This document shows, one piece after another, positions 5,559-29,818 of a stretch of DNA of 59,418 nt; position 1 is the stretch's first letter, and each line of letters begins with the position of its first letter. A program made the translations under genes and the position numbers. Under the pieces are notes generated by a model. It had not been told where the DNA came from. It worked only from the letters and a program-made list of their open reading frames with translations, and searched no databases. Source of the DNA: Rhodobiaceae bacterium (GTDB lineage Bacteria; Pseudomonadota; Alphaproteobacteria; Rhizobiales; JANQQB01); contig JANQQB010000277.1 in NCBI GenBank assembly GCA_028285165.1, positions 1-59,418 of the forward strand, written 5' to 3'.

Positions 5559-6175
5559 CCCTGTCGCCCAACGGCCCCTTGCGGGTCGGCATAGGAGGCC
5601 CGGTCGGATCGGGCAAGACGACGCTCACCGAAAAACTCTGCAAGGCGATGCGCGATACCTATTCGCTCGGCGTGATCACCAACGATATCTACACACGCGA
5701 GGATGCCGACGCCCTCGTGCGATTGCAGGCGCTTTCCTCCGACCGCGTCGTTGGCGTGGAGACCGGCGGATGTCCGCATACCGCCATACGAGAGGATGCT
5801 TCGATCAATCTTGCGGCCATCGACTCGCTCAACGAACGTCATCCCGATCTCGATATCGTATTTGTCGAATCCGGCGGCGACAATCTGGCGGCAACGTTTT
5901 CGCCGCAACTGGCCGACATCACCCTCTACGTGATCTCTGTCTGCCAGGGCGAAGAGATCCCGCGCAAGGGCGGCCCCGCCATTGTGCGCTCCGATCTCTT
6001 GATCATCAACAAATCGGACCTCGCACCGCATGTCGGTGCCGATCTGGAAGTCATGCGGCGCGACGCGGAGACCATGCGAGCGGGCAAACCGTTCCTGTTC
6101 AGCGACATGCGCCGCGGAAACGGGGTCGACGATGTGGTGACTTTTCTCGCCGAGGCAGGCGGCTTGCGGCACTGA
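5555..6175 (+). CDS. ureG: Urease accessory GTPase UreG
   Basis: UreG is a SIMIBI-class GTPase that carries nickel and powers its insertion into urease. The P-loop [10 protein letters not shown] covers residues 14-23, the nickel-binding Cys73-Pro-His75 lies in ETGGCPHTA, and the guanine-specificity motif NKSD is at 152-155. Length (206 aa) is typical. It overlaps ureF by four bases (ATGA) and is the last gene of the operon; a convergent gene follows after 16 bases. Confidence 0.97.
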
Positions 6176-6191
6176 CTGCAAACCAATCAGC

Positions 6192-7289
6192 TTACGCCGC
6201 CAGATCCACAGATTTCAGGTCCTCGATGATCTTCAGGCCCAACGGTTCGAAGGCGCGAACGAAATCCATGTCGAGACAGCCGGACATGGAATACAGCATC
6301 TGCATGGCACCGCGCGGTGACATGGGATCTTTGTAGGATCGCTTGTCCACCAGGGCGGAAAACACGTCGACAATAGTCAGCATGCGAACCGGATCACAGA
6401 TCGCTTCGCCGGCAAGGCCGCGAGGATAGCCGGTGCCGTTCAGATATTCGTGGTGTTCGTGGACAAGTTTCAGGGTTAACGGGTCCCAATTGCCGTCGCT
6501 CTTCAGGATTTCATAGCCAAGTGACGCATGGGTTCGGACGATACCCTGTTCTTCCGGTGTGAGCGGGGTCTCCTTGTCGAGCAGTTCGAGCGGGATCCGG
6601 GCCTTGCCGACATCGTGCATCAGGGCGCCAAGCACCATGCGGGTCTTGTCGCGATCGCCGAACCCCAGATGGGTTGCAAACGCCATCGTCAAACCGGCGA
6701 CATGCATGCTGTGACGGTAGGAATAGGAATGGTGGCCGTTGATGGCCGATAAAAACTCCAGTGCACCGCCGTGCTGTATCGCATTGCAAATGTGCTGGGC
6801 GCTCCTGTCAAAGACCGCCCTTGGCAACGGTAATCCGGATTGCACAGCGCTCGTAATGACATGCAGGCATTCAAGGCCGCTCTGCGAGGCTTCAAGACAA
6901 TGGTTCGGGCCGTTCCGCATCAGGGCACGAAAATGATCAGATGCGTTGCAGACAGCGTCCAGCAGCTTTCGTGTGTCGGCGGGACGGTCGACGGTGGCGC
7001 GAGCCTTCAGTGTCGCGGCCTGGACCACATCCTGGCGCGATCCCCGGTCCACCAGGAACACTTTTGGAATCTCGACGCATCCCGCTTTCTCGCAATATGA
7101 ACGATATTGTTCGAGAAGATCCCGCTTCTTGAGATCGATGCCGACAACGGCACCGGGATAGCCTGATAGATCAGGTACATTATCGGCTGTAATCGGATAT
7201 TCTGTAAGCAGAAAAAACTTCCGCAACGTCTGCCGAACGTGCTGGAGGTCTTCCTCGAAGTCGGAAAGGAGCAGCAGTCTGGTATCCAT
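6192..7289 (-). CDS. HD-GYP domain protein with degenerate receiver-like N-terminus
   Basis: This is a predicted cyclic-di-GMP phosphodiesterase (365 aa). Residues 1-120 look like a response-regulator fold (LLLLSDFEED, then VVGID), but the usual Lys-Pro near its end reads DRP, so normal phosphorylation control is doubtful. The HD-GYP domain has YRHSMHVAGL (His193, His196), the HD pair His225-Asp226 in LMHDVGK, RTHASLG, and HHEYLNGTGYP at 279-289 where Asn replaces the common Asp after the HHE. It lies convergent to ureG, with its promoter probably in the AT-rich region to its right. Confidence 0.88.
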   Translation of the reverse strand: MDTRLLLLSDFEEDLQHVRQTLRKFFLLTEYPITADNVPDLSGYPGAVVGIDLKKRDLLEQYRSYCEKAGCVEIPKVFLVDRGSRQDVVQAATLKARATVDRPADTRKLLDAVCNASDHFRALMRNGPNHCLEASQSGLECLHVITSAVQSGLPLPRAVFDRSAQHICNAIQHGGALEFLSAINGHHSYSYRHSMHVAGLTMAFATHLGFGDRDKTRMVLGALMHDVGKARIPLELLDKETPLTPEEQGIVRTHASLGYEILKSDGNWDPLTLKLVHEHHEYLNGTGYPRGLAGEAICDPVRMLTIVDVFSALVDKRSYKDPMSPRGAMQMLYSMSGCLDMDFVRAFEPLGLKIIEDLKSVDLAA

Positions 7290-25999: not shown

Positions 26000-26908
26000 T
26001 CAGTTGATAGCCGGCAAATCGGCAGCGACCGCTCCCGGCATCGCCGGCCCATGCGTTTCCACCGAATCCAACGCGATGTCGCCATATACGAGGGCCCGAG
26101 CAAGGGCTTCCTCACGGGTCGCGGCCCCCAGCTTCCGGCGGGCGTTCTTGAAGTGGAATTCGACGGTGATCGGGGCAATGCCAATCGAACGGGCGATCTG
26201 CGCCGTGCGGCTGCCCTTGGCCAGGAGTGTCAGACACATGCGTTCTCGCGCCGATAACCGACCGGACGGCACGGCTTCGGCCGTTTCCTGTCGGCTTGCG
26301 AAGGCATCGAGCCTTTCGTGCGCATAAAATCCCATCAGGCGCACCGGCAACGCGACTTCGTCATACAGTCGGTCGAAACGTCGTCTCGGCAGATGTGTTC
26401 CGAACGTCCAACCACCGCAGCGCCGGTTGCTGCCCAATCGAACCGGGCTCGTGAAGCCGCTTGCCAGTCCGGCCTCGCTCATGTCCAGGAGGCGCTGCCG
26501 CGCGGGCTCGGACAGATTTGGATAAAGGTCGAGATATTCGACGCCGGTCAGCCTCGGTTCAAAGCTCTCGCAATGCCTGAGCAGCGGATCAGCGGCAATC
26601 TGGGTCTCCGAGAGATAGTGATCGGTCCACCAGGCCGGCAGCGTCGACCGGGTCACGCCTGCGTCGTGCGGCGCCTCCGGCCTCACACACACGTAAATCA
26701 GACTATCGATCCCGAACGCGCGAAAATGGGACACACAAATCGACCAGAGGTCTTCGTTGTCGCCCGCCTCCTGCAAGGCTTCGACAAAGCGATCAACCCG
26801 GGTGTCGTGTTCTGCAGGCCGCATTGCGCACGCTTCATTGCGCGCATACCGGACCCGGTTACTTTCCACAACGCCGTCTCGTGTCTCACCGATACTATGC
26901 CCGACCAT
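26000..26908 (-). CDS. LuxR-type quorum-sensing regulator (solo)
   Basis: This 302-aa protein has an N-terminal autoinducer-binding domain and a C-terminal LuxR helix-turn-helix (RLSARERMCLTLLAKG, then IARSIGIAPITVEFHFKNARRKLGA). The four signature residues of acyl-homoserine-lactone pockets occur with the right spacing: Trp94, Tyr98, Asp107 and Pro108 in WWTDHYLSETQIAADPLL. The start at 26908 is supported by AGAAGGG upstream. No luxI-type synthase is in the window, so it is a LuxR solo that could respond to external or distantly encoded signals. It is divergent from the HTH-hydrolase fusion. Confidence 0.88.
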   Translation of the reverse strand: MVGHSIGETRDGVVESNRVRYARNEACAMRPAEHDTRVDRFVEALQEAGDNEDLWSICVSHFRAFGIDSLIYVCVRPEAPHDAGVTRSTLPAWWTDHYLSETQIAADPLLRHCESFEPRLTGVEYLDLYPNLSEPARQRLLDMSEAGLASGFTSPVRLGSNRRCGGWTFGTHLPRRRFDRLYDEVALPVRLMGFYAHERLDAFASRQETAEAVPSGRLSARERMCLTLLAKGSRTAQIARSIGIAPITVEFHFKNARRKLGAATREEALARALVYGDIALDSVETHGPAMPGAVAADLPAIN

Positions 26909-26974
26909 GAAGCCCTTCTGCCTTCCGCAGTTTTACCGCTTCGACATTTAGGGATGGACAGGATTTGCGGCATG

Positions 26975-26986
26975 CCCAATCTTGGG
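26975..26986. promoter_or_regulatory. Short inverted repeat between two divergent LuxR-type genes
   Basis: CCCAATCTTGGG has perfect five-base arms around two bases. It lies 67 bases from one start and 124 from the other, within the shared promoter region. It is shorter than a classical lux box, so assignment as an operator is tentative. Confidence 0.25.
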
Positions 26987-27109
26987 TAACTTGGCCAGGG
27001 CCGGTCGCTTTCTATTTTTTTTGCAGGAACAGAAACGATTGGCGCTGTCCCACCGCCGAAGCCGCTGTGTCTTGCGACGAGCGCTCGGCCAAGCCAATTG
27101 TCAGGACGC

Positions 27110-28768
27110 ATGCAGCGCGATCACACCGATAGTGAACCCGTTCCCGGTTCCACCGCGATCGACATGATCGATGCCGTCTACGGTGCCGTCCTGGATCACG
27201 ACCGGTTTGATGAACTGATCCGGCTGACCGTCGGCTATCTGCCGGACAACATCCAGCAATCCCGGTTCGCCGAATTGCGCGCCCTTCTGGAAAATCATCT
27301 GGCGCGCGCGGAGACGATGCTGCATCGGCTGCCGCAGGACACGAACGGCGCCCCGGAAGACGTCCCGCACTTCGATCTGTCCCGAGCCGGACTGATCGTC
27401 GATGCCAACGATGCTGCGCGATCGCTTTTTGGAACAGAACCGGGCCTGTCGGTGTACGAGTTCGACATCCCGACCGACATGGTCTCCGCGCTGCGGGACT
27501 TTCTGTCCGGCCAAAGCACTCTGCCTCCCGTGCTGCGGCTGACCCGGTTGGATACGACGACGCCCTATGTCGTCAGCGTAGAGCCATTGCCGGGCGGGAT
27601 CGGAGCGCGCTGCCGCGGCGTCGACGCGCTCTGGTCGGACGAAGCCGGCGAAGCTTTGCGGACGCTGTTCAAGCTGAGCCGGTCCGAGGCCGAGGTATTG
27701 GGTCTCCTGTTGTCCGGCCTGTCGCCGATTGAGGTAGCAGAGCGACGGGGCCGGTCGATCGAAACAGTGCGTCAGCAGATCAAGGCGATGTTGTCGAAAA
27801 CCCATTCCGGCGGGATCCAGGATCTTATCCACCTCGCCCGGGCCGTCACCTTGTCAACCCGTCGCTCGAATCGGCGCGGCGGCAATGCCGCATCCGGCGA
27901 CCGGCGCGGCCTGCACCGCCTGCCGGACGGTCGGGTTCTCGACTATACGCGTCAGGGCAATCCAAACGCTAAGGATGCCGTGTTCTTTCTGCACGGCTGC
28001 CTGTGCGGCAACCGGTTTCCGGCGCCCGCCGTGGAGGCGTTGAACACGCGATCCTTGCAGGTCATCGCTCCGGCACGCCCCAATCACGGCCAGTCTTCCG
28101 GCAAGGAAGCCTTCGTTACGGGACCTGACCTCTACGCGCGTGACCTGTTGCATCTGGCCGATCATCTGGGCATTGAGCGGTTTCACATCGTCGCGTTCGA
28201 CATCGGCACGATCTATGCGCTCATGTGCGCCCGACATGTCGATCATCGCGCCACCGGTCTGACCTGCATTTCAGCCCAACCGCCGATCGGCGGCCTTGCC
28301 GACATCGCCTCGATGCCGGCGCAGCAACGGGTTTTTGCCCTGATGCCGAAACTTTCGGTTCCGTTGCTGAGATTCATGGCCAAGGCCGGTGACAAGCGGT
28401 TGAAACGGATCGGGGAACGCGGCTTTCCGGACGCCGTCTTTCGCGATGCGCCCGCCGACCTCAGGGCCTGCGAAGACCCGGATCTGTTGCGGCTCTTCTG
28501 GCACGGCCATCTGTTTCATGTCGAAAACGGATCGGAAGGGTTTATCGACGATTGCCGCGTCGTTGCCTCCAACTGGTATTCGACTTTCGTGCGTCCGGCC
28601 ACGCCGATCCGTTTCCTGCATGGGGAGGAAAACGCCACGATTCCGCCGGAACGGATCTTCGGCTTCGCCGAGAAGCTCGGCGCTCGCATGACATTGGTGC
28701 CTGGCGCCGGCCATACCTTGCCGTTTACCCATTGGGATGCAGTCTTCGACGCGGTCGTCGGCGACTGA
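27110..28768 (+). CDS. LuxR-type HTH fused to alpha/beta hydrolase-like domain
   Basis: This 552-aa protein has three parts. Residues 1-175 look PAS-like (SRAGLIVDANDAARSLFG). Residues 180-250 are a LuxR-type helix-turn-helix (KLSRSEAEVLGLLLSGLSPI, then RSIETVRQQIKAML). Residues 265-552 are an alpha/beta hydrolase with oxyanion motif FFLHGC at 293-297 and a C-terminal GAGHTLPF with His535. The nucleophile elbow reads VAFDIGT, with Asp364 where serine is expected. It may be a sensor that binds rather than hydrolyses its ligand, or an Asp-nucleophile enzyme. An ATG at 27110 is preferred over a TTG at 27098. Confidence 0.85.
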   Translation: MQRDHTDSEPVPGSTAIDMIDAVYGAVLDHDRFDELIRLTVGYLPDNIQQSRFAELRALLENHLARAETMLHRLPQDTNGAPEDVPHFDLSRAGLIVDANDAARSLFGTEPGLSVYEFDIPTDMVSALRDFLSGQSTLPPVLRLTRLDTTTPYVVSVEPLPGGIGARCRGVDALWSDEAGEALRTLFKLSRSEAEVLGLLLSGLSPIEVAERRGRSIETVRQQIKAMLSKTHSGGIQDLIHLARAVTLSTRRSNRRGGNAASGDRRGLHRLPDGRVLDYTRQGNPNAKDAVFFLHGCLCGNRFPAPAVEALNTRSLQVIAPARPNHGQSSGKEAFVTGPDLYARDLLHLADHLGIERFHIVAFDIGTIYALMCARHVDHRATGLTCISAQPPIGGLADIASMPAQQRVFALMPKLSVPLLRFMAKAGDKRLKRIGERGFPDAVFRDAPADLRACEDPDLLRLFWHGHLFHVENGSEGFIDDCRVVASNWYSTFVRPATPIRFLHGEENATIPPERIFGFAEKLGARMTLVPGAGHTLPFTHWDAVFDAVVGD

Positions 28769-28879
28769 AAACCGGACAATCAAAGCCTCGGGCTATGATT
28801 TTCCATAGCTGGCCGGACCGAACCTGGCCGGCCATCGTGCAATGCAGTCGTTTCACCTTCACCGGTAAACCTGGTCACC

Positions 28880-29818
28880 ATGCACGAAACCTTCTGGGAC
28901 CCCTTTGACGGCACGCAGTCCCCGGCCCTGTCCGCGCCGGACAAAAGCGCACCCAATTGGGTCCTTCCCGACTATCTCAAAAGGCTTGAACTGCCGCTCC
29001 TGCTTCTGGCGTTCCCGGCTTTCGCCATTGCCGCATTCAGCGACACCTATCGGTTCTACGGCGTCGCGGCCTTCACCATCGGGATCGGTGGCGGGCTTGC
29101 GATCAATCATTTCAGTGACGCTGAGGGAACGTTGCGCCGGCGCCTTCAGGCCGCTGCCGAGGCACTCGGCTTCGCCTTTCGCGGCAATATGCCGGACGGA
29201 CGTCTTGGAACCATCAGACGGCGGGTCCCGGAATTGTTCACGCTGCGCATCGGCGGATCGATTCCCCTGGTCATTTCCTCCGAAATGTGGGGCAAGAGCC
29301 CGTCCGGCGTGCCGTTGTGGCTCGGCGCCGCGGCATTGCAGTCGGCGGCGTTGTTCGGCGGACCGAAACAGGACCGCAGCGTCGGACCGGACACCATGTT
29401 TGGCAACACCGTGATGATGATCGCCGGGTACCGTCTCGAGCGCGATACCGGAATTCGTGTTCTGATCATGCCGGAATTCGTGACGGCGATCGGCCCCCTC
29501 GACCGGGACATCAAGACCGAGAGCGTCGAGTTCAACGCCAAATTCAACATCCGCATGAGCATGGCCGACGGCCAGTCGGCCGTTCCGGATGAAGCAACGG
29601 CGGATCTGTTGCGTGTCTTGACGCCTGCCTTCCAAGCGACCTTGATCGACCTTGCCGACCGCTTTGCGGCCCGGGTTGTTGTCGACGGGGATACCGTGTT
29701 CTTCGCCGGGTACCAGAACCTCCGAGCGCTCGACGCGGAGCAATTGACCGGTCTGGTCAAATCGGCCGTCGATCGTTTTGCCGAGGCCGCCGTCTCCTTC
29801 AAACGCTACGCCGAATAG
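28880..29818 (+). CDS. DUF3137 domain membrane protein
   Basis: This 312-aa protein has two hydrophobic segments near residues 37-70, then the DUF3137 core (TFGN-like DTMFGNTVMMIAGYRL, RVLIMPEFVT, FVTAIG, FNIRMSMAD and a C-terminal DTVFFAGYQNLRALDAEQL). The domain is of unknown function and is commonly encoded next to lemA, as here. The pair is probably a membrane-associated module; biochemical activity is not known. Confidence 0.82.
   Translation: MHETFWDPFDGTQSPALSAPDKSAPNWVLPDYLKRLELPLLLLAFPAFAIAAFSDTYRFYGVAAFTIGIGGGLAINHFSDAEGTLRRRLQAAAEALGFAFRGNMPDGRLGTIRRRVPELFTLRIGGSIPLVISSEMWGKSPSGVPLWLGAAALQSAALFGGPKQDRSVGPDTMFGNTVMMIAGYRLERDTGIRVLIMPEFVTAIGPLDRDIKTESVEFNAKFNIRMSMADGQSAVPDEATADLLRVLTPAFQATLIDLADRFAARVVVDGDTVFFAGYQNLRALDAEQLTGLVKSAVDRFAEAAVSFKRYAE

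Follow-up and report, generated by a model that had tools for sequence, protein, structure and literature searches.

The window, a stretch of 59,418 nucleotides from a Rhodobiaceae bacterium, encodes a fusion protein that we interpret as a one-component regulator of a neighbouring envelope cassette, with an α/β-hydrolase domain sensing a small ligand for a LuxR-type helix-turn-helix (HTH); we give this reading a probability of roughly 0.6. Comparison of the protein with its relatives suggests that a former enzyme now acts as a chemical sensor within a transcription factor. The gene and its domains are laid out as follows.

27110–28768, + strand: PAS-like / LuxR-HTH / α/β-hydrolase fusion regulator, 552 aa
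27110–27325, + strand: N-terminal helices, residues 1–72 (full-length model, with low confidence there)
27359–27625, + strand: probable PAS-like sensory domain, residues 84–172 (modelled strand/helix order; Pfam PAS in relatives)
27638–27865, + strand: LuxR/GerE helix-turn-helix, residues 177–252 (Pfam GerE and full-length model)
27899–28765, + strand: α/β-hydrolase domain, residues 264–552 (Pfam, AlphaFold domain model and Foldseek)

The open reading frame is unbroken and ATG-initiated, with a possible alternative start at a TTG codon (27098). Pfam matches Abhydrolase_6 to residues 291–548 (9.7e-12) and GerE to residues 189–243 (5.3e-4, which is under the curated cut-off). GerE is matched at E ≤ 0.1 in 25 of 33 family members, with a best value of 1.3e-13, and Glu193 and Lys230 are invariant across the family. 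The protein carries the GerE helix-turn-helix of LuxR/GerE-type regulators, and its predicted role is to bind DNA and control transcription. The Autoind_bind domain of AHL-binding LuxR proteins has no Pfam match in the fusion. Residues 84–172 probably form a PAS-like domain, for which sequence support is weak: Pfam returns weak PAS matches in six of the 33 family members (best 5.6e-5), and those with a reported position all lie N-terminal to the GerE position. The region has the strand/helix order β-β-α-α-β-β-β in the full-length AlphaFold model, which was built from eight sequences and has a pLDDT of 64, with the arrangement of the domains poorly modelled. The intact reading frame, the Pfam matches and the domain model bear out the HTH–hydrolase fusion described in the initial annotation, to which we add the N-terminal helices and the probable PAS-like domain preceding the HTH.

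Modelled alone, the hydrolase domain has a pLDDT of 83.7 and a pTM of 0.86 (AlphaFold), and its best structural match by Foldseek is 9wlv (TM 0.86), a Ser-type hydrolase judged by its GWSGGG elbow. Pfam, the model and Foldseek place the domain in the α/β-hydrolase superfamily, with the nucleophile elbow at the turn from strand 5 into the next helix. The three positions of the canonical triad are listed below.

28199–28201, + strand: Asp364 (GAC), in the nucleophile elbow VAFDIGT (alignment and domain model)
28631–28633, + strand: Asn508, at the canonical catalytic-acid position (alignment; Asp in stand-alone relatives)
28712–28714, + strand: His535 (CAT), at the retained catalytic-histidine position (alignment and codon comparison)

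In the domain model, a strand (358–363) leads into Asp364 and then into a helix, forming the elbow, while His535 is part of the final active-site loop, after the strand at 526–530. Alignments by phmmer set Asp364 opposite an Asp in 5nfq, within its epoxide-hydrolase elbow GHDWGG, and opposite the elbow Ser in 9wlv. The alignment and the domain model therefore agree with the earlier proposal that Asp replaces Ser in VAFDIGT, and neither places another residue at the nucleophile position. That proposal gave a partial account of the triad: Asp364 and His535 are as claimed, and the third acid is replaced by Asn508, leaving the window protein with Asp–His–Asn in place of a complete catalytic triad.

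Relatives were collected from plasmids, whole genomes and genome contigs; in the genome-contig scan, a single-protein query retrieved none, whereas an alignment of three sequences did. Fourteen distinct intact proteins of the Asp type were obtained: the window protein, one from an uncultured Rhodobacteraceae MAG (L061, 48–50% identity), five from Roseibium/Labrenzia genomes, those of Roseobacter SK209-2-6 and Ruegeria TM1040, one from G220, three Tistrella-type proteins and one from L109. Asp364 and His535 are kept in all 14, at domain identities down to 22%, and are among the 28 invariant positions of 289 in the domain. The codons for both residues switch synonymously among these genes (GAC/GAT for Asp, CAT/CAC for His), and dN/dS among the Roseibium/Labrenzia copies is 0.06–0.09. 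An isolated mutation or a sequencing artefact at Asp364 is ruled out by the conservation in 14 of 14 together with the synonymous codon changes; the comparison of homologues that the initial annotation had proposed thus finds a constant Asp within the type, and close homologues without Ser. The lineage of the window protein has fixed an Asp–His pair. His at position 535 is present in 14 and absent in none of the Asp-type proteins, against 12 and 42 of the other fusions (Fisher 8e-8, uncorrected for shared descent); an independent-pairs test of Ser/Asp with His had only five pairs and was underpowered.

In a quick tree the Asp type falls into two parts, with the Tistrella group separate. A single Asp-type clade is compatible with the data (p-AU 0.38), and two separate origins are conceivable. 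Gln222 of the recognition helix, found in 14/14 Asp-type proteins versus 0/54 other fusions, is common to both groups, a pattern that speaks for shared descent or a shared DNA target. A fifteenth Asp-type copy, in Roseobacter sp. MED193 (L068), is a broken gene with an unreadable elbow, comprising two overlapping fragments (5890–6567 and 6417–6842); the adjoining VWA gene is open.

The catalytic positions behave differently in the wider family. Across the 54 other HTH–hydrolase fusions, the nucleophile position holds S, G, A, Q, M, V, L, R, F, Y or H and is absent in one, and the position of His535 is most often Q; ranked by conservation, positions 364 and 535 stand 110th and 122nd of 284. The Ser, His and Asp residues are intact in every stand-alone relative (17/17). 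The scaffold residues Gly283, Arg323, Asp450 and Gly534 show little or no variation among the degenerate fusions. Drifted catalytic positions combined with a steady scaffold are most simply read as release from catalysis with the fold still useful, as in a receptor, and the HTH–hydrolase fusions appear to be mostly pseudo-hydrolase regulators. The triad has not been lost in all of them, since two paralogous fusions in the genome of the window, L002 (G000:C231:7009-7524) and L003 (G000:C460:5079-5678), keep Ser and His (GNSLG/GGH and GNSIG/GGH, respectively). Fusion regulators also occur as tandem pairs (L072 7916–11385, L083 7922–11647 and L029), with residues at the nucleophile position differing within a pair. 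No description of these HTH–hydrolase fusions was found in the open-licence papers searched, and our survey points to a little-studied family present in Alphaproteobacteria and other classes of the same phylum.

Since almost any residue is tolerated at 364 and 535 in many fusions, the hydrolase domain could also be a plain structural or dimerisation module that takes no ligand, with Asp364 contributing packing or a salt bridge. We consider this unlikely, as Asp and His are invariant in one lineage down to 22% identity and scaffold and loop residues are conserved across the degenerate members. That the hydrolase domain is the sensor, or part of the sensor, is the best explanation. The initial annotation had offered two roles for this domain, a ligand sensor or an Asp enzyme like haloalkane dehalogenases and epoxide hydrolases; the drift of Ser and His in the 54 fusions on a fixed scaffold favours the first, while membership of those enzyme families fails on motifs.

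Haloalkane dehalogenases and epoxide hydrolases have an HGxP oxyanion motif and a Trp or Arg following the nucleophile. The window protein has the same fold and, by alignment and model, an Asp at the nucleophile position and a His at the base position, whose function is only predicted. It differs in being fused to an HTH, in reading HGCLCG at the oxyanion motif (HGCL, HGAL or HGAI in Asp-type relatives), in having DIG at the elbow with no Trp or Arg after Asp (D[IVAT]G in the relatives), and in lacking a third acid behind either strand 6 or strand 7 (Asn508, and no acid in CISAQPP; this feature is variable in the relatives). We do not file the protein with either family because HGCL stands in place of HGxP and Asp is followed by neither Trp nor Arg; on the usual motif definitions and with the third acid missing, membership is ruled out.

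Catalysis would equally need an invariant Asp–His pair, and an active Asp-nucleophile hydrolase is for this reason possible, if doubtful: Asp364 would form a covalent enzyme ester with His535 as base, and the regulator would sense and destroy its own ligand. The fold is compatible with such an enzyme, Asp and His are always kept jointly in the Asp-type lineage while both drift elsewhere, and the acid position retains Asp in Ruegeria, L045, L061 and L065. However, Asn takes this place in the window protein and the five Roseibium/Labrenzia proteins, those of Tistrella and L109 carry Ser there, strand 6 is followed by no acid, the dehalogenase-type motifs are missing, and the sequence profile is closer to Ser esterases than to dehalogenases, with Ser arylesterases as the nearest solved proteins. 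In a variant based on covalent capture, which we think quite improbable, Asp364 would form an ester with the ligand, His535 without an acid partner would release it slowly, and the regulator would remain switched throughout the life of the adduct. A metal-ion site formed by Asp364 and His535, perhaps joined by His541, in place of a site for an organic ligand is very improbable. All three residues are invariant in the 14 Asp-type proteins, but His541 also occurs in 37% of the other fusions and 47% of the stand-alone relatives and is therefore not specific to the type, which weakens the case for a metal site.

The fusion gene is followed by two genes of a conserved cassette.

28880–29818, + strand: unnamed membrane-protein-like gene, 312 aa
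29827–30423, + strand: LemA-family gene (Pfam LemA 3.9e-40)

These begin 111 bp downstream of the fusion and stand in the same order as in Roseibium. Downstream of the fusion, each of the five Roseibium/Labrenzia loci carries in turn a VWA gene (DGSGSMWGQI), a 28880–29818 relative and a LemA gene. The product of 28880–29818 has no Pfam or NCBIfam match; its homologues beside the fusion are 52–54% identical (three aligned), and a survey of 372 alphaproteobacterial genomes turned up the family nowhere beyond the window and these five loci. A VWA gene lies near the fusion at 12 of 14 Asp-type loci versus 3 of 45 others, a comparison without phylogenetic correction in which flank lengths differ and the L109 contig stops approximately 250 bp past the fusion gene. 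It lies downstream in Roseibium and Tistrella; in Ruegeria, Roseobacter, G220 and L061 it lies upstream in divergent orientation, with zero to three VWA genes of the cassette family per genome (18 genomes). In the window, the fusion has no VWA neighbour; the sole MWGQI-type VWA gene found in the same genome is on another contig (G000:C174:7201-7938, L148), where it adjoins an amidase-like gene.

For the sensor that we favour, a small ligand would enter the former active site of the hydrolase domain, where the Asp–His pair would hold it or process it slowly. Occupancy by the ligand would then alter how the HTH is positioned or how it dimerises, and the HTH would in turn switch the nearby envelope cassette (the VWA, unnamed membrane-protein and LemA genes in Roseibium, and the last two in the window). 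A search for operators found no inverted repeats in 26880–27115 and just two short ones in 28760–28885.

The α/β-hydrolase scaffold is re-used as a receptor in the hormone receptors DAD2/D14, KAI2 and GID1. D14 and KAI2 keep Ser–His–Asp and act via protein partners, whereas the putative receptor domain of the window protein has a DNA-binding domain in the same chain. The closest described precedent for sensing by a hydrolase and a PAS domain is, by analogy, RsbQ–RsbP of Bacillus subtilis, a two-protein module in which the hydrolase RsbQ works with the PAS domain of RsbP and for which phosphatase, kinase or cyclase outputs are described (PMC3183031). RsbQ is a separate protein and requires its catalytic triad (PMC3183031). 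RsbQ–RsbP couples an α/β-hydrolase to a PAS domain that controls an output domain, and the window fusion may do likewise through its probable PAS-like domain. The window fusion differs in being a single chain, in place of a separate hydrolase gene next to a PAS gene, with a LuxR HTH as output and an altered Asp–His–Asn triad in place of an intact one. Another counterpart is WP_011536845.1 from Ruegeria sp. TM1040, which has the same architecture and Asp–His pair at 41.5% identity to the window protein, but has Asp at the acid position and a VWA gene upstream. Such proteins are annotated as ‘alpha/beta fold hydrolase’ or ‘LuxR C-terminal-related transcriptional regulator’ and are uncharacterised; we found no functional description of them in the open-licence papers searched.

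The family appears to record the recruitment of a hydrolase as the likely sensor of a DNA-binding protein, with the catalytic site drifting afterwards. Within it, the Asp–His lineage offers a natural case in which to ask whether an altered catalytic pair can be retained by a receptor for binding, and the linked genes could serve directly as a read-out in named marine genera, Roseibium and Ruegeria among them.

Two further observations concern the flanking genes. The divergent neighbour of the fusion in the window (26000–26908, − strand) encodes a LuxR protein with an Autoind_bind domain, and no obvious counterpart is present among the flanking open reading frames listed for L061, L062, L064 and L065. 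Near the VWA genes, three proteins without a Pfam match (L061 4207–6891, L065 5045–5866 and L062 10595–12319) may also belong to the envelope cassette.
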